47,331 nt of DNA from the IMG/VR virus record IMGVR_UViG_3300049217_000104, positions 1 through 47,331 of that record; one strand, 5' to 3'. Shown here one piece after another: positions 10,297-47,152 of the stretch. Each line of letters opens with the position of its first letter. Positions within the stretch are counted from its first letter, which is position 1. Made by a program: the position numbers and the translations under genes. This stretch comes from a virus. The notes under the pieces were generated by a model that did not search any database, had not been told where the DNA came from, and saw only the letters and a list, made by a program, of their open reading frames with translations.

Positions 10297-10325
10297 TTGA
10301 CTCGCAGGTGGAACCCGCTTATCCT
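10297..10325 (+). promoter_or_regulatory. Strong sigma-70-like promoter
   Basis: TTGACT (10297-10302) and TATCCT (10320-10325) are separated by 17 bases, five and four matches to consensus. The predicted transcription start (about 10332) is only one or two bases before the ATG at 10334, so the transcript would be leaderless. Confidence 0.6.
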
Positions 10326-10333
10326 GTCCCCAC

Positions 10334-10504: not shown

Positions 10505-10556
10505 GCACCTTCCGGGAACGGGCGCGCCGCCCCTACTTCATCCGCCGTTGACGCAC

Positions 10557-11108: not shown

Positions 11109-11131
11109 GGTTTCCTCCTGGGGTGACGACT

Positions 11132-11184
11132 CTCGACGACAGACGTCGAGCGTTGACTATACCCGCAAAGAGGGGAATTGTCGA
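11132..11184 (-). promoter_or_regulatory. Promoter and operator of the double-HTH gene
   Basis: On the minus strand, TCGACA (complement of 11179-11184) and TATAGT (complement of 11156-11161) are 17 bases apart, five of six matches each. The inverted repeat CTCGACG-N5-CGTCGAG (11132-11150) covers the predicted start point, and a further CTCGAC half-site overlaps the -35 box. Autorepression by the gene product is the natural reading. On the plus strand TTGACT (11153-11158) has no good -10 partner, so the late promoter is not identified. Confidence 0.55.
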
Positions 11185-11229
11185 GACGGATCAGTCCGAG
11201 CGCGCACTCTCTAAGCCGAAGGGAAAGAA

Positions 11230-12344: not shown

Positions 12345-12392
12345 GGTGATTTTCAACCGCGCACAACGGCCCGGGGCCTGCGCGCTCTAACC

Positions 12393-14872: not shown

Positions 14873-14893
14873 CGAGGCAGGTGGGAGGCAGCG

Positions 14894-15304
14894 ATGGTGG
14901 AAGCGAAACAGAACCGCGCGGGGCATGTCAATAAAGCCACGGTGGTCGACGAGCTAGGGCGCATCGAAGCGGACCTGGCCAAGGCCTACGCGAAATTGGA
15001 AAAGCAAGTCACGCGAGCCGCTGAGCTGCGCGCGCTGATCCTCAGTTGGTACGACGCCACTCCCGCCAATGAAGCGGCGCTGGCCGAGGGCAAAAAGTTC
15101 GTGGTGCAGGTGACCGCGTGCTTCAACCAGCGCACGCTCGATATCGGCAGGGTGTACCGCAAGCTGGGCTGGAAACGCTTTCTGCTGGTGTGCTCCGTGC
15201 CGCTGGGCAAGGCGCAGGCGGTGCTGGGCCCGCGCGAGATGGCGGCGTGCGTGACCACGGCGCAGACCGGCCCGCGATCGCTGAGTGTGGTGGCCCGCGG
15301 ATGA
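14894..15304 (+). CDS. Hypothetical protein with a coiled-coil N-terminus
   Basis: A 136-residue protein. Residues 15-50 form a likely coiled coil (VDELGRIEADLAKAYAKLEK), and the rest is mixed (KFVVQVTACFNQRTLDIGRV). GGGAGG lies a few bases before the ATG. The context between terminase and portal suggests a packaging or head-assembly accessory, but no family is recognised. Confidence 0.55.
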   Translation: MVEAKQNRAGHVNKATVVDELGRIEADLAKAYAKLEKQVTRAAELRALILSWYDATPANEAALAEGKKFVVQVTACFNQRTLDIGRVYRKLGWKRFLLVCSVPLGKAQAVLGPREMAACVTTAQTGPRSLSVVARG

Positions 15305-15522
15305 TGGACAAGATTCCATGGCGCGCCCTGCGGTCCTCGAACGTCCACAGCGCGAAGCACGATCCGGAAACCAACACGCTCCACGTGAAGTTTCACGACG
15401 GAGCGATCTACGAATACGAAGGCGTGCCGGCGTCGGTGCACCAAGGGCTGATGAACGCGCCCTCGGCCGGCAGCTTCCTGCACCAGCACATCAAGCAATA
15501 CGGGGGGTACAGGATCAATTGA
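15301..15522 (+). CDS. KTSC-domain protein
   Basis: A 73-residue protein that fits the KTSC domain along its full length: SSNVHSAKHDPETNTLHVKF, then GAIYEYEGVPASVHQGLM and SAGSFLHQHIKQYGGY. KTSC domains are small beta-rich modules found alone in phages or fused to RNA-related enzymes; their role is not settled. It is coupled by ATGA to the gene before and by TTGA to the gene after. Confidence 0.75.
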   Translation: MMDKIPWRALRSSNVHSAKHDPETNTLHVKFHDGAIYEYEGVPASVHQGLMNAPSAGSFLHQHIKQYGGYRIN

Positions 15523-15788
15523 AGCCCGCCACGCCAGTCCTGTTACGAGCGCCCGAGTGCGGGCGCACGCGAGTGTTCGCGAAGAATCAGCCGCAGTATC
15601 AGGCGTTGCCGACGCTGGTGGGCGGCGGCGACAAGGGGCGCGTGACGAGCCGCTGGGAGTTGACCTGGCGCGAACGCTGGCACATTTTTCGCCATGGCAA
15701 TCTCTACATCCAGCAGCTCACCTACGGCTTCCCGCTGCAAGCGATCCTGCCGAGCGTTGAGGAACCGAAACCGGGGGACGTGCTGTAA
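15519..15788 (+). CDS. Small conserved-looking phage protein
   Basis: An 89-residue protein probably starting at TTG (15519-15521), which overlaps the preceding stop in a TTGA. The second half (SRWELTWRERWHIFRHGNLY, then QQLTYGFPLQ) resembles a short protein I recall from many phages with the pattern WRLSWRERL and a Leu-rich end. Function unknown. The TTG start is inferred from the overlap rule. Confidence 0.55.
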   Translation: MKPATPVLLRAPECGRTRVFAKNQPQYQALPTLVGGGDKGRVTSRWELTWRERWHIFRHGNLYIQQLTYGFPLQAILPSVEEPKPGDVL

Positions 15789-17959: not shown

Positions 17960-18156
17960 ACCTCCAGGCGATCATAGCGGCTTCGATGATCCTGGGGCGT
18001 GGCAACACGGCGGACCTGAGCACGATGGGCACCCGGCGTGTACGCGCAGCGCGGCGTGCGGAGGCCGGCAATCACAAATGCCGCTGCGGAAAAACCATTT
18101 CGGCGAACAAAGACAAGTGCCTCGCGTGCGCGGAAGGGCGCGTGATCGAATGCTGA
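17956..18156 (+). CDS. Small zinc-ribbon-like protein
   Basis: A 66-residue protein starting at GTG in a GTGA overlap with the portal gene. It has a basic centre and then CRCGKTISANKDKCLAC, a short zinc-ribbon-like Cys spacing. It ends with a 7-base overlap into the next gene. Function unknown. Confidence 0.55.
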   Translation: MNLQAIIAASMILGRGNTADLSTMGTRRVRAARRAEAGNHKCRCGKTISANKDKCLACAEGRVIEC

Positions 18157-18425
18157 AACTCGACCGGCTGGACAGCGACGAGTTGGAGCGTTTCGTCGGC
18201 TCCCTAATTTGGGCGGAATACACGCGCCGCATCGACGAGCGCGTGGCCAGTTACCAACGCACCTGTGAAAGGCGCGAATCTAAAGAGAGCGAAATCCGCC
18301 ACGCACAAGGGGCTCTCGAAGCTCTGCGGTTTGTCGGTACCCTCCCCACGCTGCTGCGGAAGGAAGTCCTTCGGAGCGGCGCTGCCAATCCAGCCACCGG
18401 CCGGACGACGAGGAGAGTCCCATGA
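18150..18425 (+). CDS. Hypothetical helical protein
   Basis: A 91-residue protein, charged and helical (LDRLDSDELERFVGSLIWAE, IDERVASYQRTCERRESKE). Helices with alternating charges suggest a coiled coil. It is coupled to the next gene by ATGA. No family is recognised. Confidence 0.5.
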   Translation: MLKLDRLDSDELERFVGSLIWAEYTRRIDERVASYQRTCERRESKESEIRHAQGALEALRFVGTLPTLLRKEVLRSGAANPATGRTTRRVP

Positions 18426-18676
18426 ACCAACCGGCAGGTATGCCGCCGCTGATCCAAATCGCGGGCCTGGTGTACAACCGCGACCACATCGTGAAAGTCG
18501 ATCTCACCAAGCCCGACGTGGTGGTGATTCACACGACGACGGGCGCAGACCCGTATAGCGGAACAATCGGCGAGCAGGTGCGCCACTTCTTCGCTGGACC
18601 GCCCGCACCCGCAGCCGCGGGGCAGGCTGGTGATAGCAAGCCGCAGAAGCGCACCGGAAGGAGAGCAGCAGCATGA
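18422..18676 (+). CDS. Hypothetical small protein
   Basis: An 84-residue protein with a compact beta part (PLIQIAGLVYNRDHIVKVDL, then DVVVIHTTTGADPY) and a disordered Ala/Pro/Lys/Arg tail. The strand-turn-strand pattern with VVIHT is like small regulators or tail-associated proteins, but no family can be named. ATGA overlaps occur on both sides. Confidence 0.5.
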   Translation: MNQPAGMPPLIQIAGLVYNRDHIVKVDLTKPDVVVIHTTTGADPYSGTIGEQVRHFFAGPPAPAAAGQAGDSKPQKRTGRRAAA

Positions 18677-19029
18677 TGACCGACGACGGGCCGGAAACGG
18701 CCGAGCACGCGCAGCCCGTGCAGGATCTCGACCCAGGGGGCCTCGCGAAAGTAGGCGAAGCGCCGCAGCGGATGGAAAACACTGTGAAGGCAGCACAGTC
18801 GGACCCGCCGCGCGCGACTGTGGGGCGCATCGTTCATTTCGTGATGCCGGACGGCCGCCACAGGCCCGCCATCGTGGTCGAGGAGTTCGGCGGCGGCACG
18901 GTGAACCTGCAAGTGTTCACGGACGGCGCCAACGATGGCCACGGCGAGGGGATGTTGTGGAAGACCTCGGTGGGGCAGGATGACGAGACGACGCGGCCGG
19001 GTTCCTGGCATTGGCCGGAGCGCGGTTGA
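18673..19029 (+). CDS. Phage protein of a widespread uncharacterised type
   Basis: The 118-residue product has a disordered acidic N-terminus, then GRIVHFVMPDGRHRPAIVVE, NLQVFTDGANDG and the ending PGSWHWPE. I recall this arrangement (IVH, RPAIVV, LQVF, DG, WHWPE) from many phages, where it usually stays unannotated. The beta-rich core suggests a small barrel. Function unknown. Confidence 0.6.
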   Translation: MMTDDGPETAEHAQPVQDLDPGGLAKVGEAPQRMENTVKAAQSDPPRATVGRIVHFVMPDGRHRPAIVVEEFGGGTVNLQVFTDGANDGHGEGMLWKTSVGQDDETTRPGSWHWPERG

Positions 19030-19043
19030 AAGAGGAGATGACC

Positions 19044-19493
19044 ATGACGCGAGCCTTGAGAATTGCTGTACTGACGCTTTTGTGGTTTTCCGGCGTGTCG
19101 CTGTACGCGCAGGGTACCAAGCCGAATATCGGCGCGATGCGCGGCCCCGCTGGAGTCGCACCCGTTGCGGTGATCGTGAATCCGGATGGCAGCATTGTGC
19201 TGGCCACGCTCGATTCCGCCACGCTCACTATCGACACTAGCAGCGGCAAGCCGGTGCTGAAGGGAACGCCAGCGCCCACGCTGCCGCCGCGCCAGGTGGA
19301 AGTGGCCACGCTCACGGCCACCGCACCCAGCTACACGCTGAGGCAAACGCCTACGCTGCCGAACGAGTTGGACGTGGCGGTCAACGGGCTGCTGCTGTCG
19401 CCGGGTGACGACTACACTCTCGCCGGCGCGGTGATCACGTGGACCGGGACGGTGCCAGGGCCAGGAGATAAGGTGCGCGCGGCGTACCGGTGA
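19044..19493 (+). CDS. Exported or envelope-associated structural-type protein
   Basis: The 149-residue product starts with a convincing signal peptide (RALRIAVLTLLWFSGVSLYA, cut near AQG), which is unusual in a head-gene cluster. The C-terminal 60 residues (LDVAVNGLLLSPGDDYTLAG, then ITWTGTVPG) match the C-terminus of the collagen-like protein at 25040-25846. The ATG at 19044 is chosen because AGGAG (19033-19037) is 6 bases upstream; an ATG at 19038 is too close. It may be displayed on the cell or added to the virion. Confidence 0.6.
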   Translation: MTRALRIAVLTLLWFSGVSLYAQGTKPNIGAMRGPAGVAPVAVIVNPDGSIVLATLDSATLTIDTSSGKPVLKGTPAPTLPPRQVEVATLTATAPSYTLRQTPTLPNELDVAVNGLLLSPGDDYTLAGAVITWTGTVPGPGDKVRAAYR

Positions 19494-19711
19494 GACAGCG
19501 GCGGCGCGCGGTCGTAAGATTCACGGCCCAACAACTCGCCGAAGCCCTGGACCTCAGGCCCGATTTGGAGGCAGTGGGGATCCGCGTGGTGCGTCCGGAC
19601 GGCTGGACGCCCCACGTGGAGCTGCTGCTGCGCGGCGAAACAATTAGCACCACGCCTGAGGGCGCTGAGCCGCGGCGGTACACGCTGGAGGAATTGCAGC
19701 GTGCCCTCTAG
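19490..19711 (+). CDS. Hypothetical small protein
   Basis: A 73-residue protein starting at GTG (GTGA overlap). It has a basic start (RQRRRAVVRFTAQQLAEAL), a helix and a two-strand hairpin (VELLLRGETISTT). It overlaps the next gene by 11 bases. No family is recognised. Confidence 0.5.
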   Translation: MRQRRRAVVRFTAQQLAEALDLRPDLEAVGIRVVRPDGWTPHVELLLRGETISTTPEGAEPRRYTLEELQRAL

Positions 19712-20105
19712 CCCGATGACGCCCGCGTCGCAGGTGGATCAGGTCACCCTGCAGGACTGGTGCGCGAAGTGGCAGAAGATCCTGCGGCTGCAAGATTGGG
19801 ACGTGAAGATCGACCTCGCGCCCGCTTCGAAGATGGCCGACAAGCAGGGCGACGTGGAATGGGTCAAGAGCCAGAAGACGGCGAAGATCCGCATTCTTGA
19901 ACCCAGCCACTATCCCGCCGATCACACCTATCCGCAGGATTGCGAACAGACCGTGGTGCATGAACTGGTGCACCTGCACTTCGCGCCCGTCGACAGATAC
20001 AACGAGGGCCCGCAGGAGATGCTGCTGGAGCAGGCGGTGGATCTGATCGCCTGGGCGCTGGTGAAGTGCGATCGCAATACAGCCGCGCTGCCGCTGGCCG
20101 CATGA
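19701..20105 (+). CDS. Putative zinc metallopeptidase (HExxH)
   Basis: The 134-residue product carries VVHELVHLHFAP, with HELVH at residues 87-91, the zinc-binding signature of zincins. A downstream Glu-rich helix (MLLEQAVDLIAWALV) could supply a third ligand. The fold resembles small SprT- or IrrE-like enzymes more than a secreted protease. The GTG at 19701 is assumed; an ATG at 19716 is possible. Being next to scaffold and capsid genes it could be a maturation protease, but it lacks features of known head proteases. Confidence 0.6.
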   Translation: MPSSPMTPASQVDQVTLQDWCAKWQKILRLQDWDVKIDLAPASKMADKQGDVEWVKSQKTAKIRILEPSHYPADHTYPQDCEQTVVHELVHLHFAPVDRYNEGPQEMLLEQAVDLIAWALVKCDRNTAALPLAA

Positions 20106-20245
20106 TCGCCGCGCTGATCTGCGTGCTGTTCCATCGCGGCAGTTGGTATCGCGACCAGGTGCCGCACTGCAATTGGCTGAAGGACCAGCGCAGCGATTGG
20201 TGCGGACGGTGCGGCAGATCGTGGAACTGGAGGCCAGCCCCGTGA
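20102..20245 (+). CDS. 47-residue Cys/Trp-rich protein
   Basis: The frame begins in an ATGA overlap with the metallopeptidase gene and its stop overlaps the next GTG. The product starts with a short hydrophobic segment (MIAALICVLFHRGSWY) and ends with WCGRCGRSWNW, a CxxC with many Trp residues. The two perfect couplings support translation. Function unknown. Confidence 0.5.
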   Translation: MIAALICVLFHRGSWYRDQVPHCNWLKDQRSDWCGRCGRSWNWRPAP

Positions 20246-20601
20246 ACGAAACGCCGGAAGCCCCAGCCGTTCTCCGCGTCCAAATTCAGTGCCGCTACTG
20301 CCACAAGTACCGCCCGGCCGAGGAGCTGCTGGGCATCGCGCGCATGTGCCTCTATTGCCGCGAGTGGCACGCCCACGCGCTCGAAGTTTTGAGCGGCGCG
20401 GTGCCCAAGGGTTGCCAGGAGTGCGGCCTCAGCTTTGAGCAGATCAGAGTTTCCACCTTCGATGCCGACGTAAAGATGTACGTCGTCCCGCTCGACGGGA
20501 TTTATCAGGTGCTCTGCCGGCCTTGTTGTGGCGAATTCGTCCGCAAGAGCCGAGACCGCTACCAGGGAACGGCCTTCGCGGAACGCATGAATCTGCGATA
20601 G
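20242..20601 (+). CDS. Multi-zinc-finger phage protein
   Basis: The 119-residue product has four Cys pairs: CRYC and CLYC in the first half, CQEC and CRPC in the second. This suggests two treble-clef-like zinc sites. Similar proteins (with a CQECG core and KMYVVPLDGIYQVLC-like ending) are widespread in phages, sometimes called HNH-related, but no nuclease His residues are visible. Starts at GTG. Confidence 0.6.
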   Translation: MNETPEAPAVLRVQIQCRYCHKYRPAEELLGIARMCLYCREWHAHALEVLSGAVPKGCQECGLSFEQIRVSTFDADVKMYVVPLDGIYQVLCRPCCGEFVRKSRDRYQGTAFAERMNLR

Positions 20602-20631
20602 CTCGCCCGGTTGCTCCAGGGAGTTTTCCAT

Positions 20632-21450
20632 TTGGCCGAAGAGAAGATCGATACCACTGTGTCCGCAGGTGCCGAGGACACGGCTGCCGCAACTGCCGCT
20701 GCTGCTGCTGCTGCTGCACCCACCGACAAAGGCCCCGATGCGAAGGCGCTGGCGGATGAAAACGCCCTACTGAAACGCACCCTCGCCGACAAGGACCGCG
20801 TCATCGGAGAAAAAGACCAGGCGGTGCAGTATTGGCACGGCCAGGCGAAGGGCGCGAAGCAGCCCGCCGACGACAAGCAGCCCCCCGCCGAAGCCGAAGA
20901 CACCACCGATCTGCTGGACCTGATCGGCACCAAAGGCGCGAAGGGCCTGGACGATTACCTGAAAGCCAAGGGGTTCGTCAAAGGCAGCGACGTCGCCGCG
21001 GCCGTCAACACCAAGGCGCAGGAAATTTCGCGCGAAGCGGGCGTGGTGGGGCGCTTCCCGGAGTTGAAAGACCAAAACTCCGAGATGTTCAAAGCCACGG
21101 CGCGGCACTTCGCCGAACTCGAAGCGGAGGGCATCAAGGGCACGCGCGCTACGGAAGTGGCGACGGCGATGGCCTACGCGGAGCTGCTCGAAGCCGGCAA
21201 GATCACACCGCGCGGCAAGAAGGCGGCGGAGCCCAACGCCGGGGGTACTGACGACGACCAGCGTGAGAGTGACCGGCTGCGGCGCGTGCGCGCCCAGGAA
21301 GGCGACAACGGCCGGCGCACCGGCGGTGGTGGCGGCGGCAAAGACGACGAGCTAGACCCCGTGCAGAAGCGCATGGTGGAGGCCTTCGGCATCACCGAAG
21401 AAGCCTACAAAAAACGCGCCAAGGAAGGGGTGCAATTTGCCCGACCGTAA
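20632..21450 (+). CDS. Probable scaffolding protein
   Basis: The 272-residue product (TTG at 20632; an earlier TTG at 20611 is possible) is acidic, rich in Ala, Lys, Asp and Glu, and mostly helical, with a poly-Ala run encoded by GCT repeats, a likely coiled coil (DENALLKRTLADKDRVIGEK) and a disordered Gly-rich segment near residue 235. The C-terminus (MVEAFGITEEAYKKRAKEG) is a helical hook like those that bind coat protein. Composition and position between portal and capsid fit a scaffold that is expelled or degraded during DNA packaging. Confidence 0.65.
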   Translation: MAEEKIDTTVSAGAEDTAAATAAAAAAAAPTDKGPDAKALADENALLKRTLADKDRVIGEKDQAVQYWHGQAKGAKQPADDKQPPAEAEDTTDLLDLIGTKGAKGLDDYLKAKGFVKGSDVAAAVNTKAQEISREAGVVGRFPELKDQNSEMFKATARHFAELEAEGIKGTRATEVATAMAYAELLEAGKITPRGKKAAEPNAGGTDDDQRESDRLRRVRAQEGDNGRRTGGGGGGKDDELDPVQKRMVEAFGITEEAYKKRAKEGVQFARP

Positions 21451-22640: not shown

Positions 22641-23564
22641 ATGTTCATCCGCACAGTTTTTCCTGATCTCTATTTGCAGAGCATGCTGCCTGCGATCGAC
22701 GAAGTGGTCATGACGAAGTACAGCCGCTTCCCCGACGAATTTCCCGAAGTGTTCCGCATGGAGGGGTCGAAGCGCGGCATCGAGCAGACCACCGAAGTGT
22801 CGGGCCTGGCGCAGTTCGCGGTCATTCCGGAAGGCATGGACACGCGCTACGACGAGCCCATCCCGGCGTTCAACAAGACCTACCAGCACGCGCAGTACGG
22901 GCTGGGCTTCAAGGTCTCGAAGATCGCCATGGACGACGACAAATTTGGCGTCGTGAAAAAGCTGGCGACCGAGCTGGGGCGCAGCGCGAAGGAAACCCGC
23001 GAAGTGGTGGCTGCGGCCGTCATTAACAACGGCTTCAGTTCCTCGTTCCTGGGTCCGGACGGCGTGGCGCTGTTCTCGACCGTTCACCCTCTGGTGGGCG
23101 GCGGGACGCAGACCAACCGCGCGAGTGTGGCCAGCGATCCGAGTGTCACCAGCATCCGGCTGGCGCTGACCGATATGCGCCAGGCCGTCGACCACCGCGG
23201 CAAGAAGCAGCGCATCCCCCCGAAAAAAATGATCGTGCCGGCGGGGTTGGAATTCATCGCGGCCGAGCTGCTGGGCGGGGCCGAGCGCAGCGACACCGCG
23301 AACCGCGCGATCAACGCCTTCAAGCGGCGCAGCGGAATGCCGAGTTTCGATTCCTGGATGGTCTACGACTATTTGACGGACCAGCACGCCTGGATGATCG
23401 AAGCCGACAAGGCCGACACCGAATTGCGGTTTTACGACCGCGAGCCCTTCAACGTGATCCACGACATCGACTTCAACAGCCGCAGCGTGATGACGGCCGG
23501 GTGGATGCGTTTCAGCGTGGGCTTCAACGGCTTCTACGGAATCTACGGCGTCCCCAGCTCCTAA
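22641..23564 (+). CDS. Major capsid protein (HK97-like fold, Mu gpT-like)
   Basis: The 307-residue product has features of HK97-type coat proteins: a long N-terminal helical arm, AFNKTYQHAQYGLGFKVSK (E-loop and spine region), then DGVALFSTVHPLVGGG, a motif seen in Mu-like head subunits, and a C-terminal part with SVMTAGWMRFSVGF. Its location after scaffold and decoration genes supports the call. Hundreds of copies build the icosahedral shell. The TAA stop sits in the loop of an 8-base-pair hairpin. Confidence 0.8.
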   Translation: MFIRTVFPDLYLQSMLPAIDEVVMTKYSRFPDEFPEVFRMEGSKRGIEQTTEVSGLAQFAVIPEGMDTRYDEPIPAFNKTYQHAQYGLGFKVSKIAMDDDKFGVVKKLATELGRSAKETREVVAAAVINNGFSSSFLGPDGVALFSTVHPLVGGGTQTNRASVASDPSVTSIRLALTDMRQAVDHRGKKQRIPPKKMIVPAGLEFIAAELLGGAERSDTANRAINAFKRRSGMPSFDSWMVYDYLTDQHAWMIEADKADTELRFYDREPFNVIHDIDFNSRSVMTAGWMRFSVGFNGFYGIYGVPSS

Positions 23565-35045: not shown

Positions 35046-35382
35046 AGCCGGGGCCGAAGGCGTGAAGCTCCATAGACCCTGCGCCAGCGCCAACCTCAAA
35101 GAGGTAATTGCCACCGGGCATGCTCACGGTGACCGTCGATTCGTTTTCGATATCGACGCTGAACGCGCCTAGGTCGACCAAACGGCGCGGGCCGGGTTCG
35201 ATCACGGCGAACGGAACGTGCGCGACCTCCGGCATCTCGTTGATGATCTGCCACGCATCGCGTGCTGGGAGCGGCTGCCTCCGGAGTCGGGCGAAGAAGT
35301 TTCGAACCTGTTCCCGGATCGGGTCACGGGCTACAGGCGCGGCGGCGAGTAACGCGAGGAAGGCGCGACGGTTGAGATCCAT
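34972..35382 (-). CDS. Leftward Tat-signal protein, possible moron
   Basis: The 136-residue product runs against all surrounding genes. It starts with a twin-arginine signal (DLNRRAFLALLAAAPVA), so it would be exported folded. The mature part has a helical segment and beta strands (ESTVTVSMPGGNYLFEVGAG). GAGAGG precedes its ATG. Its start codon shares base 35382 with the TTG start of the fibre gene, and its end overlaps the holin gene by 74 bases. Isolated reversed genes in late operons are often cargo expressed from the prophage. No promoter of its own was found. Confidence 0.5.
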   Translation of the reverse strand: MDLNRRAFLALLAAAPVARDPIREQVRNFFARLRRQPLPARDAWQIINEMPEVAHVPFAVIEPGPRRLVDLGAFSVDIENESTVTVSMPGGNYLFEVGAGAGSMELHAFGPGSISQRPWRQLGPAQPLVVPASPAA

Positions 35383-38300
35383 TGCCCTCTCAGATTAACA
35401 AGCTCCAGCCGGATCGCACCATCCACCTCCAAGGCTTCGACGCCTTCGGCGCCGCAGCGGCGATGCACAGCGCGAGCCCCACCGGATTTTCGGTGAGCGG
35501 TGTGTTCCGCGATGCGGCCGACTTCGCGGTGCTGATGCTGTGGGACGCGGATTGTTTCTTCGAGCACCCGCGCCTGAAGTACCTGCCCGATTTCGATTTC
35601 AGCGGCATGGTGCTCCAGTTCGACGTATCGTATGCGAAACTTCAGCCGCTCGATTCGCAGAAATTCCCCACCATCGACTGGCCCTATCTGGACGTGGTGC
35701 GCTCGACGGATGGCACCACGGCGCAGATCAACCTGTTCAACAACGCCACCTTCGTAAGCGGCAGCTACAGCGCCGCCAGCGGCGTGTTCCAGATCGTCAG
35801 TCCTGGCGCGGCGGCGTTCGACCGTTTGACGCTGTGGTTTCAAAACATAGCCTTTGACTTCGTCGCCTCCGGAGGCGAGACGGCCGCGGATGTGGCAGCG
35901 GCGCTCGCCGCGCAGATCAACACCTTCGACTGGACCGGCGGCGGCGGCATCAACGCGCTGTCGGCGGTGGCGCTGGGCGCGCAGCTTACCATCACCAACG
36001 CGCGCTACGGCCATGTGAACACCAGCGGCAAAGCCATCACGCTCGCCGCCGGCCAGAACTTCGCGGGGCTTGCCGCCGGCGATCCCATCGTAATCGGCGG
36101 GGTGGCCACCAGCGTCACCGCGATCGGGAGTGCCGCGATCCAGGTGGCCAACGATTTCGGAGTGCAGGCTTCCTTGCCCTATCTCGCGCCGCGCGGCGGC
36201 ACCGATGGAAACATGGTCACGCTGTACGCGCTGGCGAAGAACACGAACCTGACTACTTCTCAAAGCCTGGTGCAGCTTGCGGGTGGATCGAGCGCGGCCA
36301 CGTGGCGCATCACTCTCGATTTCACGGCGCTGGGCATCGACAAACTGCGGCAGGCCTGGCTCACCTTCGCGCCGCGTCTCGCCTTCGCCGCGGCTTACGT
36401 GGCCGAGGAATGGGACGCGGTGTTCACCAATTGGTCAGTAACGGACAGCAACGGCAAGCGACCGCTAAAAGTGGCTGGGCCGGGCAGCGTGCGAATCGAG
36501 GAGACCGATTCGTGGGTGACCCTCACCGGCGCGTCGTGGGCGGCGCCGCCGGGCGAGGGAGGTTTTTACTCGCAGGGTTTCGCGCAGCGCGCCGGAACGC
36601 TGGGCGATTCGGTCACCATCCGCTACACCTGCCAGTTCGTGCATGACCTCTACGTGGGAACCGCGCTCTACAGCGACCGGGGCATGTGGGCGGCAACTCT
36701 CGACGGCGCGACAGCGAACCTCGTCGATACTTACCTGGCCACCACTTCGGAGATCCCGTCGCGGCGGTTGCTGCAGGCGGCGGTACCGGCGGGCACCCAC
36801 ACCGTCACGCTGACCGTGGCGGCGGCGAATGCGGCCTCGACCGGCAACTTCTGCTACTTCGATTTCCTGGAGGCGGCGGTGGTGGCGGACGTTCCCGATC
36901 CCCTGCCGCTGCTCCCCGACAGTTCGCCGGCCATCGACTACGACACCAACCACGGCTTTCAACTCTCGCCCGCGCGGCTGATGAATATTTTCGACAACCT
37001 GGGATTTTCCGGGCCCATCGATGAGTACCTGGGGGTGTTCTGGTGGAACCAGCGCAAGGCGGTGGGCGCGGTGTTCCCGGTGGCCGTGGTCACGCTGCTC
37101 GGCAACTTCGTGGCGGGCGACCAAATCTTCATCGAAGTGGGCACGGCTTTTGTGGGCAAGACAGTGCTGCTCGCAACCGAATCGAACGCGGTGATCGCCG
37201 CGCACCTGGCTTACTTCATCAACGAAACCTTTTCGGGAGTGTGGGCGACGTGGGCGGAGCAGGGCGACGGCGTGGCCACGCTCACCGTCACCGCGCGGTC
37301 CGCAGGCGCGGCGGCTTACAACTTCCCCTTTGCTGCGATCGCAGTGACGGTGGTGGGCTCCGATGGCGTTCTGACGTTCGTGGGCACGCTCGAAGGCGGC
37401 ATCCTGCCGGAGTGGGTCATCGACGACACCGTGAGCCCACCGCTCAACTATGCGGCGCGGCAGTGGCACGCAGACCTGTTCGCCCAAGTGGCCGCGCGCG
37501 GGTGGTCGATCACCAGCGCGGTTTCGATGGAGCTGGTGAACCCGCCCGACGATCCGGACGGCGGGCACGTGTGGACGGCGCGCTTCCGCGATGGCGTGCC
37601 GGTGCTGACGGCCACCGGGTTCGGCGTGCTGAATTCGTCGCAGTGCGTGCCCAACGCGCCCTACTTTCTGGCGTATCAGCAGGCGGTGTTTTTGAACCTG
37701 GCGCAATTGCAGTTAGCCGCGGGCCTCACCCCGGAGCTGCAATTCGGGGAGTACCTGTGGTGGTTTTTCACCGACTACGATCAGGCAACTAATCTTAACG
37801 GGGGGATGGCCTATTACGACCTGGCGACGGCGGCGGCGGCGCTGACGACGCTGGGACGCGCGCTAGGCACCTTCCTCACGCCCAACGACGATCCGGCTGC
37901 CGTCAACGGCGGAGCCGACACGGATTTCCTGGCCGACACGCTGCGCGATCACGTGGCTGCCATCGGCGCGGCGGTCCGCGCCGCCTATCCCACGGCGCTC
38001 TTGGAGCTGCTGTGGCCGTTCGACGTGAACTACCCCGTGCCGATAGGTAGGGAGAAGCTGGGTGGCCGGCTGAACTACCGGGTGAATTTGCCGGAGGAGT
38101 GGCGCACGAAGGCCGGAAGCGGTCTCGACCGCTTCAAAATGGAGGCGCTGGATTTCGGGAGCGGTACCCGCTCGCTCGATCTGGCGCTCTTGGCCATCCG
38201 GCTGCCGGGGTTGATGGGATGGCCACTAGGATCGATTCGCTACCTGTTTCCGCTGTTCAACGGCGGCTGCCCGTTCCTTTACGAACAGCAGCTAGCGCGG

Positions 38301-38402
38301 GAGCAGAAGATCCCGGCGCTGACGCCCTTCGCGATGGATCACGTGTGCCTGTTCGCGTGGGACCTGCGGGCACCGCTCCAGCCCGCAGCCCAATTGCTTT
38401 AG
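35382..38402 (+). CDS. Large tail-fibre or tail-tip protein with a hydrolase-like C-terminus
   Basis: The 1006-residue product (TTG start) opens with a beta-rich N-terminal domain (GFDAFGAAAAMHSASPTGFS, YLPDFDFSGMVLQFDVSYA). A central block contains GFQLSPARLMNIFDNLGFSG and FWWNQRKAVGAVFP. Residues about 680-1000 have alternating helices and strands with aromatic and acidic clusters (SMELVNPPDDPDGGHVW, EYLWWFFTDYDQ, LELLWPFDVNYPV, FAMDHVCLFAWD), like a TIM-barrel glycoside hydrolase. It may bind and trim a host surface sugar. I recall similar proteins from acidobacterial phage-like loci, with limited certainty. Confidence 0.55.
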   Translation: MPSQINKLQPDRTIHLQGFDAFGAAAAMHSASPTGFSVSGVFRDAADFAVLMLWDADCFFEHPRLKYLPDFDFSGMVLQFDVSYAKLQPLDSQKFPTIDWPYLDVVRSTDGTTAQINLFNNATFVSGSYSAASGVFQIVSPGAAAFDRLTLWFQNIAFDFVASGGETAADVAAALAAQINTFDWTGGGGINALSAVALGAQLTITNARYGHVNTSGKAITLAAGQNFAGLAAGDPIVIGGVATSVTAIGSAAIQVANDFGVQASLPYLAPRGGTDGNMVTLYALAKNTNLTTSQSLVQLAGGSSAATWRITLDFTALGIDKLRQAWLTFAPRLAFAAAYVAEEWDAVFTNWSVTDSNGKRPLKVAGPGSVRIEETDSWVTLTGASWAAPPGEGGFYSQGFAQRAGTLGDSVTIRYTCQFVHDLYVGTALYSDRGMWAATLDGATANLVDTYLATTSEIPSRRLLQAAVPAGTHTVTLTVAAANAASTGNFCYFDFLEAAVVADVPDPLPLLPDSSPAIDYDTNHGFQLSPARLMNIFDNLGFSGPIDEYLGVFWWNQRKAVGAVFPVAVVTLLGNFVAGDQIFIEVGTAFVGKTVLLATESNAVIAAHLAYFINETFSGVWATWAEQGDGVATLTVTARSAGAAAYNFPFAAIAVTVVGSDGVLTFVGTLEGGILPEWVIDDTVSPPLNYAARQWHADLFAQVAARGWSITSAVSMELVNPPDDPDGGHVWTARFRDGVPVLTATGFGVLNSSQCVPNAPYFLAYQQAVFLNLAQLQLAAGLTPELQFGEYLWWFFTDYDQATNLNGGMAYYDLATAAAALTTLGRALGTFLTPNDDPAAVNGGADTDFLADTLRDHVAAIGAAVRAAYPTALLELLWPFDVNYPVPIGREKLGGRLNYRVNLPEEWRTKAGSGLDRFKMEALDFGSGTRSLDLALLAIRLPGLMGWPLGSIRYLFPLFNGGCPFLYEQQLAREQKIPALTPFAMDHVCLFAWDLRAPLQPAAQLL

Positions 38403-39390: not shown

Positions 39391-40746
39391 ATGGACTACT
39401 TGCAGCCGTTTTACGATTCGCTCTCGCAGGGCGTACAGGTGGCCCAGCACTTGAACGAGGCCGCGCGGCAAAACGCGGAACTCGAAGAGCAGAAGCGCGC
39501 GCACCTGGCGGACGAAGCCATCGCCGGACGCCACGCCGATATCGCCGAGGCCGCACAGAACGAGCGGACCATGCAGGACCGCCTCACCAACCAGCTTTCA
39601 CTCGCGAGCGCCGGAGCGCAGCCAGTGACCGATGGCACCACGGCGGCGACGATGAACGCGCCCAACCCGGCCGCCACTCCGCTGCCCTCCGGCATGGGCG
39701 ACGACGGCTCGCTTACCACTCAACCGAGTGGTGCGCCGGCGACGGTGTCGCAGCCGACGCGGATCACAACCAGCCCCACCGACAATCTGCTCACCTACAA
39801 CGGCAAGCAGTACCGCGTGCCCGACGCCGACGAAATGGCGAAGAAGGAGCTGGGGCGGCGCGTGGCCCAGGCCTCCGCGCTCGATGACGTGGAGCTGGAC
39901 CGCAAGGGCGTCACGCTGCCCAACGAAATCGGCAGCGCCTTCGGCATCAAACCGGGGCAGAAAGTTTTGCTCGACCACGCGAAGGGACTGGCCGATCTCT
40001 ACGACGCGCTGCACCCCAAACCGGCGAAGGGCGCCGATCCGAACAAGCCACCCGCCTACGAGAGCGCGACTAACGACAGGGGCGACGTCACCCCCATTAC
40101 ATGGAATCCCGACAAGGGAGCGTGGGAACCCGGCCAGGTCATCAAGGGTGTGGGCAAGACCAAGGAGCAGCCCACCGGCGAGCGCGCGAAAACCGCGCAG
40201 GAAAAAATGGCCGAGGCGCAGCAGGCCAAGCACGAAGACTACCAGCAGAAAGAGCAGGACCAGTGGCGCATCGCCTCCGAATATCAGAACGTCGCGCAGG
40301 ACACCAAATCGGAGACCATCATCGATCCGGGCAACAACAAAAATGAGGTTGTGAACAGCCCCGCGCGGCGCGCGTATTTCCAGGGGCAAGCCGACGCCGC
40401 AAAGAAGAAGGCCGTCGAATATCAGCACGCCGCCCAACAGATCCGCCAGCGCCAAGGCTGGGGCGAATTCGCTCCCGGCGCACAGAACGCCGGAGCGTCC
40501 GCCCTCCCATCACCGTCGGCGGGCGCACCGGCCCCGGCCCCAGCGGCGCAGGCTTCCACCCCTGCTGCCGCTGGAGCCGCCCCCAAAGCCGCGGCTCCTC
40601 CCAAGGCCGCGGCCCCCAAAGTCGCCACCATGGACGACGTGAACCGCGCGGTGAAGGCCAGCGGCAAGAGCAAGGCCGACGTGTTGAAGGGCTTCCAGGC
40701 GCAAGGCTGGACCATCGCCAGCCAATCTCCCACCGGGGTGCAATGA
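39391..40746 (+). CDS. Internal virion protein, Ala/Pro-rich
   Basis: The 451-residue product has a coiled-coil N-terminus (VAQHLNEAARQNAELEEQKR), a polar centre (LTYNGKQYRVPDADEMAKK), a long charged helix (EKMAEAQQAKHEDYQQKEQD), an Ala/Pro linker and a small C-terminal helical domain (VNRAVKASGKSKADVLKGFQ). It sits between the ejection-type protein and the polyvalent protein, so it is probably packaged and injected. No enzyme motif is visible. Confidence 0.55.
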   Translation: MDYLQPFYDSLSQGVQVAQHLNEAARQNAELEEQKRAHLADEAIAGRHADIAEAAQNERTMQDRLTNQLSLASAGAQPVTDGTTAATMNAPNPAATPLPSGMGDDGSLTTQPSGAPATVSQPTRITTSPTDNLLTYNGKQYRVPDADEMAKKELGRRVAQASALDDVELDRKGVTLPNEIGSAFGIKPGQKVLLDHAKGLADLYDALHPKPAKGADPNKPPAYESATNDRGDVTPITWNPDKGAWEPGQVIKGVGKTKEQPTGERAKTAQEKMAEAQQAKHEDYQQKEQDQWRIASEYQNVAQDTKSETIIDPGNNKNEVVNSPARRAYFQGQADAAKKKAVEYQHAAQQIRQRQGWGEFAPGAQNAGASALPSPSAGAPAPAPAAQASTPAAAGAAPKAAAPPKAAAPKVATMDDVNRAVKASGKSKADVLKGFQAQGWTIASQSPTGVQ

Positions 40747-40747: not shown

Positions 40748-43700
40748 TTGGCATCGCCATCCAGTTTCGACGCCGACAGCTTCATGGCCGGCACGCCGGG
40801 CGAGAAACCCGCCGCCGCGCCAGGTGCGTTCGATGCCGACGCCTTCATGGCGAAGCCGAAGTCGATGTCCCAGCAGTTGCCCAGCGGTCCGCAGGCTGCC
40901 GCGACAGCTACCGACAAGGCGAAGTCGATAGTCGCCGCGATCCCGGTGGCCTCCGCGCAGCCACCGCCGCGCCCGGAAATCGGAGCTGCGCCGCCGCCCA
41001 CTCTGCTCCAGCGTTTGGAAGGTGTGCTGATCGGCACGCCCGAAAACGGAGCCACCGCCATCGGCCGCGCGATGGGCTACAACTTCGACGCGCCCACCGA
41101 AAACCGTCCCGCCGAAAACCTGCTGCAGCCGGAAGCCACGCTGCCCACAGAGAAGGGTGACAACGCGCTGGTGGGCGGCACGCGCGGCGCTCTCAAGGTG
41201 GTCGGTCAACTGACCAACGCGCCCAACATGCTCATGCTCGCCGGATCGGGCGGCATCGGAATGCTGGGTAAGGTGAGCACGCTGCTGCCGCGCGCGGTGT
41301 CGGCCGGCTTCAGCGTCCAAATGCTGCGGGATGCCTACAACCAGATTCCGGAAGTGAAGCACGCCTGGGACTCCGGCGATCCGGCGGCGGTGGCCGAAGC
41401 CATCACCAAGCTAGCGGCATCGGCCATCATGGGCGGCGCGGCCGGAGTGCACGCGGTCCATGGCGGCGCGCCGGTTGTCACGGATTCCCGTACTGAAATA
41501 AATACGCCGGAAGCGAAAACCGAAGCGACGGCGCCGGAGGCGAAGGAGGCCGCGGCCCCCACAGCGGCGGGTGGCTTCGACGCCAACGCGTTCATGGCTG
41601 CTGAGGGGCAGCAGCGTCCCACGTCCACTGCCGCAACTCCCGAACGTGGCCGCACGGCTGCATCCGCAGATGCGTTACCCCAAGCTGCCGCTCCCGGTGC
41701 GTCTCAACCATCTGCACCAGAGATTGGCACTCCGGGCAGCGCGGCGGCGAGTCCGGCGGATACGGCCGCCACCCCTCGATCGGTTGAAACTCCACAACCC
41801 GAAGCTACACCCGCCGAAGAACAGAACGGCTTGTTTGGCGACACCCACGACCTCACGACGCCGAGGGTCGGACGCGAGAAGTCGCCGGAGGCGGGCACGG
41901 TGGCGGAGATCCCCACCGGGGATATCCATGTCGATGCGCCGCGCTTCCAGTTCAAATCGAACGTGGGGGCGGGCGGCGCTGGCGAAGAATTCCGGGGCGT
42001 GACGAAGTTCGACCCCGAGAAGTCCGGCATCATTAGCGTCTGGCGCGATCCGGAGGACGGCAAGGTTTACGTGGTAAACGGGCACCACCGCGTCGAGATG
42101 GCGCAGCGGTTGGGCGCGCCGTCACTGACAGCCAGGTTCCTCGACGCCGGCGATGCGCAGGAGGCCCGCACCAAGGGCGCGCTCATCAACATCGCCGAAG
42201 GGCGCGGCGACTCGCTCGATGCGGCCAAGGTGTTCCGCGATTCCGGCATGGACGAGATGGCGCTCCAGCGCGAGGGCATTTCGCTGGTGGGCGAAAAAGC
42301 CAAAGAGGGAATGGCGCTGGCGAATTTGGATCCACATTTGTTCAGCAAAGTGGTGTCCGGCGATCTGCCGAAGGCGCGCGGCGCGGTGATCGGTGAAGGC
42401 CTGAAGAACCCCGTCGACCAACGCCAGCTTTACGATCTGCTGCAGGCCAGCGAGAAGAACGGCAAGCGCGTGACCAACGAGCAGGTGGGCGAAATGATCC
42501 GCCTGGCCAAAGGCGAAACCGACCAGCACACCGAAACCCAGGAGAACCTGTTCGGCAGCGAAGAAGCCACGCGCAGCCTGATTAAGGAAAAGGCCGAGGT
42601 ATCGGAATACGTGCAGCGCCGCATGGCGCAGGAGAAACGGCTCTTTCAGGCGGTGGGCAGCGAGACCGCGGCATCACGGCTGGGCGAGACCGGCAACGTG
42701 ATCAAGGCGGGTGCCAACGCCGAAGTCGCCGAGCGCACCGGGCAGGCCCATGCGCTCTACCAAAAACTTTCGACCATGAGCGGCCCGGTGTCCGACGCGT
42801 TGAACGCGGCGGCAGGGAAGATCGCAAAGGGGGATAATTCAAATGGTGTCAAAGAATCCGCCTACGGACAGATCAAGTCCACGCTCCTCGAACAGGCCGC
42901 TCGCCTCACAGGCGAAAGCCGCGCACCTGGTGAGCGATCTGAAGGAAATGGCGGCGGCGGGGCAGCTCAAACCAACGGCGCTGAAAATCGACCCGCAGGT
43001 TCCACCAGCCCAGCCGGCCAAGTAGGGAAACTCCCGCGCGAGTTGGCGGGAGCCGCGCCGCGCTATGCAGTCGGAGCGCACCAATTCCAGGTCTCTTTCG
43101 AGAGCGATGTGGATAAGGCCGCGTATATCGCGGCGCAGAAGGTGCGCTCCAAGCGCGACGCCAGCTACCTCAAATTTGCGATGGACCAAACCGGCCTGTC
43201 GGAATCGCACGTGCGGGCCGAAGGCCACCGCCTGAAAAGCAGCTTGGGCAGCATGGCGCGCGCGGCCATCGACGGCGGCGACACCAGCGAGCCGCTGCAC
43301 ATGGAGAAGCGAATCCCGCTCAAGGGTGAGCGCGCGATCGCCGCGCCGCCCGTGGCGAAGCCCGCTATCAGGGAAACCCCTACACCTAAGCCCGACGCAA
43401 CGCCAGCAGTCAAGGAATCCTTGACACCTGCGGCGGCGGAGCCAGCGGCCACGGAAGCCAGGCCGCGCAGCGAGACTCGCAAAGATCCGCTGTTCCAGAT
43501 GGGCGGCAAGGATCTGCAGGACCTCGCCACGAAGGGCGACCAAGGCGCTGCGGCGGAGCTGGCGCGGCGCAAGGCCAACCGCGAGGGCAAGGCGGTGCAG
43601 CCGCCAGCAGAACCCGTGCAAGGGGCGGCGGCGAGTGGCGACACTCGACGTCCGCCGTCGAATGTCGAAGCTGCCCGCGCGGAGCTGCGGACCCGCATCG

Positions 43701-46700
43701 CTGGCAAACTGCGCGACGGCGCCGACAGCCTGCAAAAGCAGATCGACGCCAAGCGCGATCCGGCCATCGGCCACCAGAACCTCACGGCGCGGCGGGCGCG
43801 GATCGCCGAGGGCATGGGCAAGGACGCGGACCGCATCGAAGATTCACAGAAGCGGATGCGGGCGCTCGCCGACTTGAACGAACGCGGTGAAGTGCCGCAG
43901 GTGCTGTCGCGCATCAACAACCGCGCCACGCTCGACGAATTGCGGCCCGGGTTTGAAGGCGCGAAGCCGGAGTACCGCAACCGGGACGCGGAGCGGTTGA
44001 AATCCGCCGGCATCAACGCCGGCAATTTCGACGAAGCCGCGCAGGCGGTGAAAGACCTGGACACAGCAAAGCGCGTCAAATCTCCGGAGCAGTTGAACCG
44101 GGAGCTGGAGCGCGGCCTGGTGGGCAAGAAGATCGAGGGATTCTTCCCCACGCCCAAGCCGGTTGTGGATCGCATGCTCGACGAAGCGCAGGTGAAGCCC
44201 GGCATGAGTGTGCTGGAGCCGAGCGCAGGCAAAGGCGACATCGCCGACGCCGCGCGCGATCGCGGAGCCAAGGTTACGGCCGTTGAAACCCATCCGGATC
44301 TGCGTTCGATTTTGGAAGCCAAGGGGCATGAGCTGGGCGGGCGCGATTTTCTCGAGCACAAAGGCCAGACCTACGACCGCATCGTGATGAATCCGCCGTT
44401 TGAGCGCGGCCAGGATATCGACCACGTGCAGCACGCCTACGATCTGCTGAAACCCGGCGGACGCGTGGTGTCGCTGATGAGCGAGGGTCCGTTTTTCCGC
44501 GACGACGCTAAGAGCCGCCAGTTCCGCGAGTGGCTGGACCAGGTGGGCGGCGACAGTGAAAAGCTGGACTCCGGAAGTTTCAAGGGGAAGGACTCGTTTC
44601 GCCAGACCGGGGTGAACGGGCGCATGGTGACCATTGACCGGCCCAACACGGAGCGCGGCAGTTTTTCGAATAAACGCACCCCGACAAGGGACGACGCCTC
44701 GACTTCGATGTTTGGCGAGAAGGACCAGGCTGCGCAGGCGCAGGAGCAGGCCGACAAGGAACGCCTCGAAGGGGAGCGGCTGACAGCGCAGTTCCGCGCG
44801 CCGGTGACCCGCGAGGAGCAGGTGAAGCGGCTGAAGCCCGACAAGACCGAGCGGCAAAGCGATATGTTCGGCGATCCGGATTCGGAAGCCAACGCGGGAC
44901 CGCGCCAGGGTGGATTGTTCGGCGACGAGCGCGGGAGTTTTTCGGGGAAGCAAAGTCCGCCGCCGCCCAAGGGCGGCTTTGAATCCTACGTGCGCAACGC
45001 CTTCGGTGAGATGAAGGATCTCAAAGACAAGCGCGATCTGGCGCAGGCGGAGCTGGAGCGGACCAAGGCCACGCCGGGCGATCAGGAGTTTGGGCGCCGC
45101 GTGATCGAATCGTTCACCGGGGAGCGGGACCTGTGGGCGGCGCGCGTCAACCAGGCGGTGGAGAAGCTGCGCCGGATCGTACCCAAAGCCGCCGACCAGG
45201 AAGGCTTGGCGCTGCTGCGCGAGTACCGGGGCAGGGAGGACGAGCTGGCGGACTGGCTCTCTGACCGCCCGCCGCTGCGCCTGGACATGAACGCGGGCGA
45301 CCATGCCGCGGCGATGCGGAACATCGAACGGATGCGGCCGGCCATTGAGAGCGCGCTCCATCCCACTCCCGCCATGCGCGCGGCGGACCAGGTGCTCACG
45401 AAGATCGCCAACCAGACCTTGCGCGAAGGCCAGCGCCTCGGTTTCCTCGAGAGCCGCTGGACGCCGGAGCAATACACGCCGCACATCCTGCACCCGAAGG
45501 GCGAAGGCCAAGTGCCCACGCCCGTCGGCGATCGCCTGGGGCGCGCGCTAGGCGGCAAGATCGGCAAGCATTTCGCGTTCGCCGAAACCCGCGACTATCC
45601 CACCTTGCTCGACGCGGTGGCGGACAACGTGAAGCCCAAGACCCTCAACGCGCTCGATGCCTTCACCATCCACGGCGATAGTTTTGCGACGGCGCGCGCC
45701 ACGCACCTGCTGGTGAACCAGATCAAGGACACCGGCGTCGGCATGGTCGAAGGCAACCGTGCGAAACGGCCGCGCGGCTGGGTGGAGCTGGCCCCGCACT
45801 CGCCGGAGTTCCGCACTCCGCAGCAGTTCTTGAGTCCGGAGGGCGAGCCCACGGCCGTCGAAGTGCCGTTGGTGGTGCCGAAGTATATCAGCGATGCGCT
45901 GCGTCCCATCACCGATCCCGAATACCTGGGAACGCTGGCCGGCTTCCGCAAGCTGCGCGTGTTTCAGGCGTACACCAAATCGGTGCAGCTTGGCCTCTCG
46001 ATGTTCCACGCCACCACGGAGAATTACATGGCGGCGGCGAACATGGGGGTGCGCGGCTGGGCCAAGGGCCTGATGGCAGATCGCACCAGTCCGGATTTTT
46101 TGAATGAGGAGCGCGATCTGATCGCCCACGGCGGCACGTCGCCGGTGCAGGGCCAGACCGTCGAAGCCTACAAGCATTTCGAGCCCGGTTCGATTCCGAC
46201 GTGGAGCGACATCTGGCGCAAGGCGCCAGGGGCGCGGGAGATGGACCGCATCGCCACCGGCCTCACCGATTTCACCTTCGGCAAGCTGCAACGCCAGTTC
46301 AAGGTGACCGACTACGCGATGCACAAAGCCGCGTGGATCGGCGACCATCCGCACGCGACCCCGGAGGACCGCACCGCGGCGATGCAGTCGATCGCCAAGG
46401 AAGTGAACGCCACCTATGGCGGGCTGCATTGGGAGAATCTGCGGGTCAACCGTTCGAGCGTTGAAGTGGCGCGGGCGCTGATGCTGGCACCCGACTGGAC
46501 CTTCTCGAATGTGTTCAACGTGAAATACGCGCTGGAGCGGGGAACGCCGGCGGGCAAGATGGCGCGCGCGTTCTGGACCCGCAACCTGGTGGGCGGCATG
46601 GCGGCGACACAGGTGGCGAGCCTGATGTGGGGCGGCAAGCCCTCGCCGAATCCGACTCAGGTGTACATGGGGAAGGATCGGGACGGCAAGGATGTTTACC

Positions 46701-47152
46701 AAAACCTGTTCTTCAAGGGCGCATCGGGCGACGTCATCAACCTGGTGCACAACGTGAGCGATTTCGGCGCGCTGCAGGGCCTGGCGCGGACCATCGCTGG
46801 CAAGGCAGCGCCGCTGGTGCGCGCCGGTGCCCAACTCTACGGCAACCGCGACTACCTGGGCCACGAAATCGTGCAGCGCGGCATGAACCCGGTGGCGGCG
46901 ACTGGGAGAGCTGCGTTCGAGACGGCGAAGGCGCTGGCACCCGTTCCGGTTTCGGTGCAGAACATCTACGACATGCTGGTGGGCCCCAAGGGCCAGCAGA
47001 AAGCCACGCACTACAGCGTGCCCGAAGTCGCGTCGACGATTTTTGCCGGCAACCCGCCGCGCCATATTCCGCCGCCCAACGGGATCGTGCACCCCAAGCT
47101 ATCGCTGATCGACCAACTGCGCACAGGACGCGTCTATAAAGGCGAGCGGTGA
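40748..47152 (+). CDS. Giant polyvalent protein: ParB-like and adenine-methyltransferase domains with a long structural C-terminus
   Basis: The 2134-residue product (TTG start) shows, in order: two FDAxxFMA motifs at residues 7-14 and 28-35; a hydrophobic helical segment (about 135-210); a third FDAxxFMA near 277; a ParB-like nuclease domain (about 385-560, with VVNGHHRVEMAQRLG near 440); linkers; an N6-adenine methyltransferase (about 1120-1300, with VLEPSAGKGDI at 1155 and NPPF at 1215-1218); and a roughly 700-residue helical C-terminus. Polyvalent proteins of phages and conjugative elements package such protective domains and inject them. Methylation would shield incoming DNA from restriction. 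It is the last complete gene. Confidence 0.8.
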   Translation: MASPSSFDADSFMAGTPGEKPAAAPGAFDADAFMAKPKSMSQQLPSGPQAAATATDKAKSIVAAIPVASAQPPPRPEIGAAPPPTLLQRLEGVLIGTPENGATAIGRAMGYNFDAPTENRPAENLLQPEATLPTEKGDNALVGGTRGALKVVGQLTNAPNMLMLAGSGGIGMLGKVSTLLPRAVSAGFSVQMLRDAYNQIPEVKHAWDSGDPAAVAEAITKLAASAIMGGAAGVHAVHGGAPVVTDSRTEINTPEAKTEATAPEAKEAAAPTAAGGFDANAFMAAEGQQRPTSTAATPERGRTAASADALPQAAAPGASQPSAPEIGTPGSAAASPADTAATPRSVETPQPEATPAEEQNGLFGDTHDLTTPRVGREKSPEAGTVAEIPTGDIHVDAPRFQFKSNVGAGGAGEEFRGVTKFDPEKSGIISVWRDPEDGKVYVVNGHHRVEMAQRLGAPSLTARFLDAGDAQEARTKGALINIAEGRGDSLDAAKVFRDSGMDEMALQREGISLVGEKAKEGMALANLDPHLFSKVVSGDLPKARGAVIGEGLKNPVDQRQLYDLLQASEKNGKRVTNEQVGEMIRLAKGETDQHTETQENLFGSEEATRSLIKEKAEVSEYVQRRMAQEKRLFQAVGSETAASRLGETGNVIKAGANAEVAERTGQAHALYQKLSTMSGPVSDALNAAAGKIAKGDNSNGVKESAYGQIKSTLLEQAARLTGESRAPGERSEGNGGGGAAQTNGAENRPAGSTSPAGQVGKLPRELAGAAPRYAVGAHQFQVSFESDVDKAAYIAAQKVRSKRDASYLKFAMDQTGLSESHVRAEGHRLKSSLGSMARAAIDGGDTSEPLHMEKRIPLKGERAIAAPPVAKPAIRETPTPKPDATPAVKESLTPAAAEPAATEARPRSETRKDPLFQMGGKDLQDLATKGDQGAAAELARRKANREGKAVQPPAEPVQGAAASGDTRRPPSNVEAARAELRTRIAGKLRDGADSLQKQIDAKRDPAIGHQNLTARRARIAEGMGKDADRIEDSQKRMRALADLNERGEVPQVLSRINNRATLDELRPGFEGAKPEYRNRDAERLKSAGINAGNFDEAAQAVKDLDTAKRVKSPEQLNRELERGLVGKKIEGFFPTPKPVVDRMLDEAQVKPGMSVLEPSAGKGDIADAARDRGAKVTAVETHPDLRSILEAKGHELGGRDFLEHKGQTYDRIVMNPPFERGQDIDHVQHAYDLLKPGGRVVSLMSEGPFFRDDAKSRQFREWLDQVGGDSEKLDSGSFKGKDSFRQTGVNGRMVTIDRPNTERGSFSNKRTPTRDDASTSMFGEKDQAAQAQEQADKERLEGERLTAQFRAPVTREEQVKRLKPDKTERQSDMFGDPDSEANAGPRQGGLFGDERGSFSGKQSPPPPKGGFESYVRNAFGEMKDLKDKRDLAQAELERTKATPGDQEFGRRVIESFTGERDLWAARVNQAVEKLRRIVPKAADQEGLALLREYRGREDELADWLSDRPPLRLDMNAGDHAAAMRNIERMRPAIESALHPTPAMRAADQVLTKIANQTLREGQRLGFLESRWTPEQYTPHILHPKGEGQVPTPVGDRLGRALGGKIGKHFAFAETRDYPTLLDAVADNVKPKTLNALDAFTIHGDSFATARATHLLVNQIKDTGVGMVEGNRAKRPRGWVELAPHSPEFRTPQQFLSPEGEPTAVEVPLVVPKYISDALRPITDPEYLGTLAGFRKLRVFQAYTKSVQLGLSMFHATTENYMAAANMGVRGWAKGLMADRTSPDFLNEERDLIAHGGTSPVQGQTVEAYKHFEPGSIPTWSDIWRKAPGAREMDRIATGLTDFTFGKLQRQFKVTDYAMHKAAWIGDHPHATPEDRTAAMQSIAKEVNATYGGLHWENLRVNRSSVEVARALMLAPDWTFSNVFNVKYALERGTPAGKMARAFWTRNLVGGMAATQVASLMWGGKPSPNPTQVYMGKDRDGKDVYQNLFFKGASGDVINLVHNVSDFGALQGLARTIAGKAAPLVRAGAQLYGNRDYLGHEIVQRGMNPVAATGRAAFETAKALAPVPVSVQNIYDMLVGPKGQQKATHYSVPEVASTIFAGNPPRHIPPPNGIVHPKLSLIDQLRTGRVYKGER

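Follow-up and report, generated by a model that had tools for sequence, protein, structure and literature searches.

The virus record IMGVR_UViG_3300049217_000104 of IMG/VR, a stretch of 47,331 bases that is known only from a metagenome and that we analyzed whole (hereafter, the window), encodes a giant protein that is probably a modular counter-restriction protein, delivered with the virion and possibly docked on a sliding clamp, of a podovirus-like and probably temperate phage. The gene lies at 40748..47152 on the plus strand, as do all of its parts described below. We are highly confident that its product belongs to the class of phage polyvalent proteins and is therefore of a known kind; what has not been reported are two additions, a set of repeated motifs resembling sliding-clamp-binding peptides and a tag that is doubled at the N terminus.

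The open reading frame (ORF) runs uninterrupted from a TTG at 40748 to a TGA at 47152, encodes 2134 amino acids, and starts 1 base past the stop of a 451-amino-acid gene (39391..40746, plus strand) that had no family match. Homologues cover most of its length, but no close full-length relative emerged from single-protein searches. The initial annotation had called this a polyvalent gene, and both the gene and its class stand: a methyltransferase and a ParB/Noc-like module, with their disparate biochemistries, share one ORF located among late virion genes; it is preceded by genes for capsid, portal-like, and tail-sheath-like proteins, and relatives of the phage are collinear. Iyer et al. described polyvalent proteins as giant late-gene products that join unrelated domains, ParB-like and adenine methyltransferase domains included (PMC5512222); the window protein differs in adding the clamp-like pentapeptide and the duplicated N-terminal tag, and a term search of that paper turned up neither a clamp or DnaN nor a linear motif or N-terminal repeat. 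The PLxRFG motif is not present in the window protein, and the LPD38 profile PF18857 matched neither it nor any control, with no hit to it in Pfam.

The ParB/Noc-like module (residues 383-734; 41894..42949) consists of an N-domain, a helix-turn-helix (HTH), and a helical tail, as judged from its model and from structure matches. The AlphaFold2 model, built from 43 related sequences, reached a predicted local distance difference test score (pLDDT) of 86.5, and its best solved matches in Foldseek were Noc, ParB, and KorB (E 2.9e-6; about 220 columns, including the HTH). In VIA, the N-domain scored a Z of about 10 (7bm8 at 2.5 Å over 95 residues), and the module scored 9.3 against Noc 7nfu_B (4.2 Å over 192 residues). 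The module carries the ParB N-domain fold with the G-x-x-R motif of the ParB/Srx superfamily; its N-G-H-x-R-type motif (NGHHR, residues 444-448, 42077-42091) is invariant among the 43 sequences, as are N481 and D491 downstream, in a stretch that we read as the possible counterpart of ParB's second nucleotide motif. ParB and Noc are related to cytidine triphosphate (CTP) switching. The module thus resembles chromosomal ParB, Noc, and KorB in its N-domain plus HTH fold but differs from them in sitting within a phage giant and in having no ParB_N match; Pfam left the region unrecognized, and PF18763 (ddrB-ParB) matched neither it nor its window-type relatives. Domain-wise structure prediction, suggested in the initial annotation as a check, yielded a confident ParB/Noc-like fold for this part. 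The description of a nuclease-like ParB domain held for the ParB-like fold and not for the nuclease as such, given that the nearest structures are nucleotide-binding, HTH-bearing ParB and Noc; from the model, nuclease activity may be one possibility among several. A 'portal' label that PHROG 21 placed on the region was rejected, since the match was to the far end of an apparent fusion profile (positions 1011-1329 of 1362).

The N6-adenine-type methyltransferase (residues 1118-1302; 44099..44653) was identified by motifs and profiles, and it is intact, as had been claimed: it retains FFPTP (residues 1132-1136; 44141-44155), which bears the TP motif, the S-adenosylmethionine-binding motif PSAGKGD (residues 1158-1164; 44219-44239), and NPPF (residues 1215-1218; 44390-44401), and it matches Pfam Methyltransf_23 (E=1.1e-7) and the PHROG 'DNA methyltransferase' (E=4e-82). 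From the motif class alone, its product would be N6-methyladenine in DNA. The domain is 47-58% identical to those of two virion-annotated giants, Pseudomonas phage H66 gp60, whose annotation states that mass spectrometry verified it in the virion, and Salisaeta phage SSIP-1 gp43, an annotated structural protein. The latter also has a ParB-like region, although its domain order differs. A region before the methyltransferase (residues 981-1089; 43688..44014) co-occurs with it in L005, L008, L010, L076, and others. M.EcoGIX, a single-strand-specific plasmid methyltransferase (PMC7736820), was set aside as a model for the substrate, as its motif is DPPY and not NPPF. In L078, positions 1280-20650 form an open frame of 6457 codons that includes a methyltransferase.

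Judged by sequence comparison, the protein is built on a constant C terminus with exchangeable cargo upstream. The C-terminal chassis of approximately 730 residues (about 1405-2134; 44960..47149) finds eight IMG/VR relatives, of which L091 is 76% and L092-L098 are about 50-55% identical to the window. The domains in front of it vary: ddrB-ParB and Zeta in L091, His_Phos and ddrB-ParB in L092, His_Phos and window-type ParB in L093, Zeta in L094, ddrB-ParB in L095, window-type ParB with a weak PBECR1 in L096, PBECR1 (a PBECR RNase) in L097, and ddrB-ParB with a PBECR1 below the cut-off in L098. L091, with the same C terminus as the window, matches PF18763 at E 1.9e-28, and a profile-profile comparison detects no similarity between ddrB-ParB and the window-type ParB. 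In two whole records, from phages collinear with the window, the C terminus is no less conserved than the portal and more so than the terminase (identities to the window of 76 and 55% for the C terminus, 44 and 55% for the portal, 45 and 36% for the terminase, and 56 and 76% for the capsid). Used alone as a query, it matched no phage in INPHARED and no bacterial genome. Between the ParB module and the methyltransferase lies an uncharacterized domain (residues 736-903; 42953..43456), parts of which are common to L085 (on one contig with L091), L095, and P-SCSP1g. Zeta-toxin-type kinase domains occur inside the giants at residues 1746-1823 of L085 and 899-981 of L094, and a histidine phosphatase (branch 1) serves as chassis cargo at residues 420-563 of L086 (on one contig with L092) and 371-507 of L093.

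The window protein contains four copies of the pattern Q-x-[SDNG]-[LM]-F against 0.1 expected: QNGLF (residues 359-363; 41822..41836), QENLF, followed by G, within the ParB module (598-602; 42539..42553), QSDMF (1370-1374; 44855..44869), and QGGLF (1387-1391; 44906..44920), three of them in linker-like sequence. Across 107 non-redundant giants of the family, the window protein included, there were 88 copies against 8.3 expected from local shuffles, a count that exceeds the number of independent gains because homologous copies were counted as independent after redundancy removal. Controls gave 13 against 6.5 in other ORFs at the same loci and 8 against 8.6 for the reversed pattern. Outside the 300 residues after the ParB motif there were 51 copies against 6.9, and a second set of 28 ddrB-ParB proteins absent from the first gave 28 against 1.9. 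Positions showed clear preferences, for Q at 1 (88 against 7.2; 47 against 7.5 under stricter masking), G, S, D, T, or N at 3, L or M at 4, and F at 5 (88 against 8.5), with an extra G at position 6 (59 against 0.5). The bacterial beta-sliding-clamp-binding consensus is QL(S/D)LF or QLxLF (PMC9690074, PMC4549789), which the window copies follow in a looser form, L being at position 2 in none of the four. From the enrichment, and from position preferences that coincide with this consensus, we propose clamp docking through the QxxLF motifs as a tentative prediction from sequence.

The N-terminal tag occurs as FDADSFMA (residues 7-14; 40766..40789) and again as FDADAFMA (residues 28-35; 40829..40852), giving the pattern FDADxFMA, with a self-match p of 0.005, the lowest attainable with 200 shuffles. 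Only translation from the TTG yields a complete first copy, and a start at the next in-frame ATG would truncate it; we favor the TTG because the copy then begins at residue 7, in keeping with relatives, whose tags start at about residue 2-9. A third copy, FDANAFMA (residues 277-284; 41576..41599), precedes the ParB module, as one also does in L085 and L098. Duplicated, lineage-specific N-terminal tags appear in about 37% of giants: the self-match was found in 18/52 non-redundant giants at p≤0.01 and, in a second sample, most of it from other loci but with some contigs from within the group, in 26/68 at p≤0.0133, compared to 8/204 internal control windows at p≤0.017. The copies are alike within a protein and unrelated between proteins whose C termini are 76-78% identical (LTPDSFM in L092 versus PDTLPADF in L093; LNPDTFM in L094 versus GWDVV in L098). 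In the stretches compared, tags were confined to the giant protein, and matches elsewhere were few, weak, and chance-like (opposite strand, short ORFs). In H66 gp60, the doubled tag is KPWEEF. We would guess that the tag is a loading or docking signal. L025, L036, L037, L058, and others have, instead of a doubled tag, the shared start NPxYxDMxDxQLVTALHxKYYSDIPxxxFxxKIG.

Two P1 proteins are among the closest known systems. DarB, carried in the phage head, gives DNA protection in cis, an action that Iyer et al. link to a SWI2/SNF2 partner (PMC5512222). Like DarB, a virion-carried proposed protector of injected DNA, the window protein has an EcoKI/TaqI-type adenine methyltransferase with TP and NPP(Y/F) motifs; the C-terminal SWI2/SNF2 motor, however, belongs to DarB and not to the window protein, and overall similarity between them is marginal in BLAST (E about 1). 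DdrB, also a phage polyvalent protein, has in common with the window protein a ParB-superfamily module and, after it, a QxxMF motif (in P1 AQGDMF, which aligns with the AQ..MF of relatives at ~25% overall identity), although its ParB is of a different type.

In our reading, the constant C terminus, and perhaps the doubled tag as well, would serve assembly into the particle or exit from it, with the middle of the protein as exchangeable cargo, here a DNA- and nucleotide-binding ParB/Noc-like module and a DNA adenine methyltransferase. By analogy with annotated relatives, delivery with the virion is quite likely, and we infer that the packaged protein would be ejected together with the phage DNA. 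The protein could then be retained on DNA by its ParB-like module together with the QxxLF motifs and, possibly, on the beta sliding clamp of the host; clamp docking could replace translocation, as DarB's motor domain is missing here. By modifying phage DNA as it arrives or once it is newly copied, the methyltransferase would shield it from cleavage by host restriction enzymes, an outcome that the DarB precedent supports and to which we give an even chance. More broadly, and with less confidence, it is possible that polyvalent proteins from P1 DdrB to that of the window bear one to four clamp peptides and attach to the host's replication clamp upon entry or shortly thereafter, either delivering their ParB/Noc-like and methyltransferase cargo to replicating DNA or blocking host replication, with the doubled tag as a loading mark.

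Several observations weigh against this reading. The phage is a metagenome record, and the virion evidence is the annotation of its relatives. The C terminus showed no detectable homology to that of H66 gp60, and its AlphaFold2 model from 9 sequences was poor (pLDDT 54), so it was excluded from the fold search; the long virion-type C terminus described initially is indeed long and conserved within one phage group, while its virion type follows from gene context and not from homology to a proven virion protein. Within this group the window alone carries the methyltransferase; all eight chassis relatives lack it, and so it is not essential to the group. No PF00176 match to SWI2/SNF2 was found in the record, with 14/14 control genomes positive, and the Pfam scan of the protein contained no helicase. 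The initial suggestion of an injected counter-defence device is partly supported, by the polyvalent class, the late location, and the virion-annotated methyltransferase relatives, and lacks the SWI2/SNF2 partner of the DarB archetype. Finally, within the ParB module the glycine following the motif is invariant, the glutamine is kept in 28/43 sequences, and the motif is modeled in a beta-hairpin, which together suggest a structural role for that copy as well.

These points leave room for other explanations. The protein could be a late intracellular one that is not injected, methylating progeny DNA before packaging and staying in the lysing cell; the late gene position suits this, and an intact methyltransferase would serve equally well late in infection. 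We nevertheless consider it unlikely, as relatives with the methyltransferase carry virion annotations, and a free enzyme hardly explains fusion to a C terminus conserved so well relative to portal and terminase in two related phages. Much the same low probability attaches to a mainly structural internal or ejection protein, whose C terminus would do the essential work as a channel or core with the cargo largely as passengers. Consistent with this, group members match the C terminus of the window protein at 50-76% identity while the cargo is fully replaceable, and in P-SCSP1g a ParB-type giant is encoded within the late virion cluster; yet the cargo domains retain catalytic or nucleotide-binding motifs and therefore appear to be under selection.

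It is also conceivable that the ParB-like module organizes or segregates phage DNA, in a partition- or occlusion-like manner with no role in conflict, since the solved structures nearest to it are those of ParB, Noc, and KorB, HTH included, and the integrase-like gene points to a temperate phage. We regard this as improbable: the module is fused to a methyltransferase here and accompanied by His_Phos or PBECR1 in relatives, and the late location is unlike that of partition operons. A more serious alternative, although one we would put below an even chance, is that the QxxLF motifs dock a partner other than the clamp, such as a virion protein. The strong preference for G at position 6 and the retention of Q in just 28 of the 43 ParB modules fall outside the clamp consensus, whereas the preferences at positions 1, 3, 4, and 5 coincide with it, and the motif recurs in two ParB types without detectable relationship.

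Both additions bear on how injected giants reach their targets and come to be loaded into particles. We found no publication joining polyvalent proteins with clamp binding, in a search that left most subscription journals outside. If the clamp peptide common to P1 DdrB is real, the target question would become easy to test at the bench in E. coli; for particle loading, the doubled tag is a concrete candidate. The constant C terminus could also serve as bait, in that the domains in front of it offer a route to new counter-defence domains.

The remainder of the window is consistent with a podovirus-like phage that, from its gene content and an integrase-like gene (2477-3109), is probably temperate. 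The scan also identified an HNH gene (7073-7945), a terminase-like gene (12393-14147), a head-tail adaptor/portal-like gene (15788-17959), a major capsid protein (22641..23564, plus strand; PF25209, Mu gpT type), tail fibre-like proteins, and a 1006-amino-acid non-contractile tail sheath-like protein (35382..38402, plus strand; PF23845). A search for transfer RNA genes in the window found none. Neither a DNA polymerase nor a sliding clamp was found among the window genes scanned, some small ORFs being outside the scan, and host replication proteins are therefore likely to be used. A 270-amino-acid ORF (5979-6791) has a GroES-like C-terminal region (phrog_3188). The product of 11178-12344, a 388-amino-acid sigma-factor-like protein whose N-terminal half had no identified match, carries sigma70 regions 2 and 4 in its C-terminal half and appears to be a phage sigma factor. 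The protein encoded at 4331-5473 has a DnaA N-terminal domain at its C-terminal end (PF11638, E 1.8e-7) and might recruit the host replication machinery.

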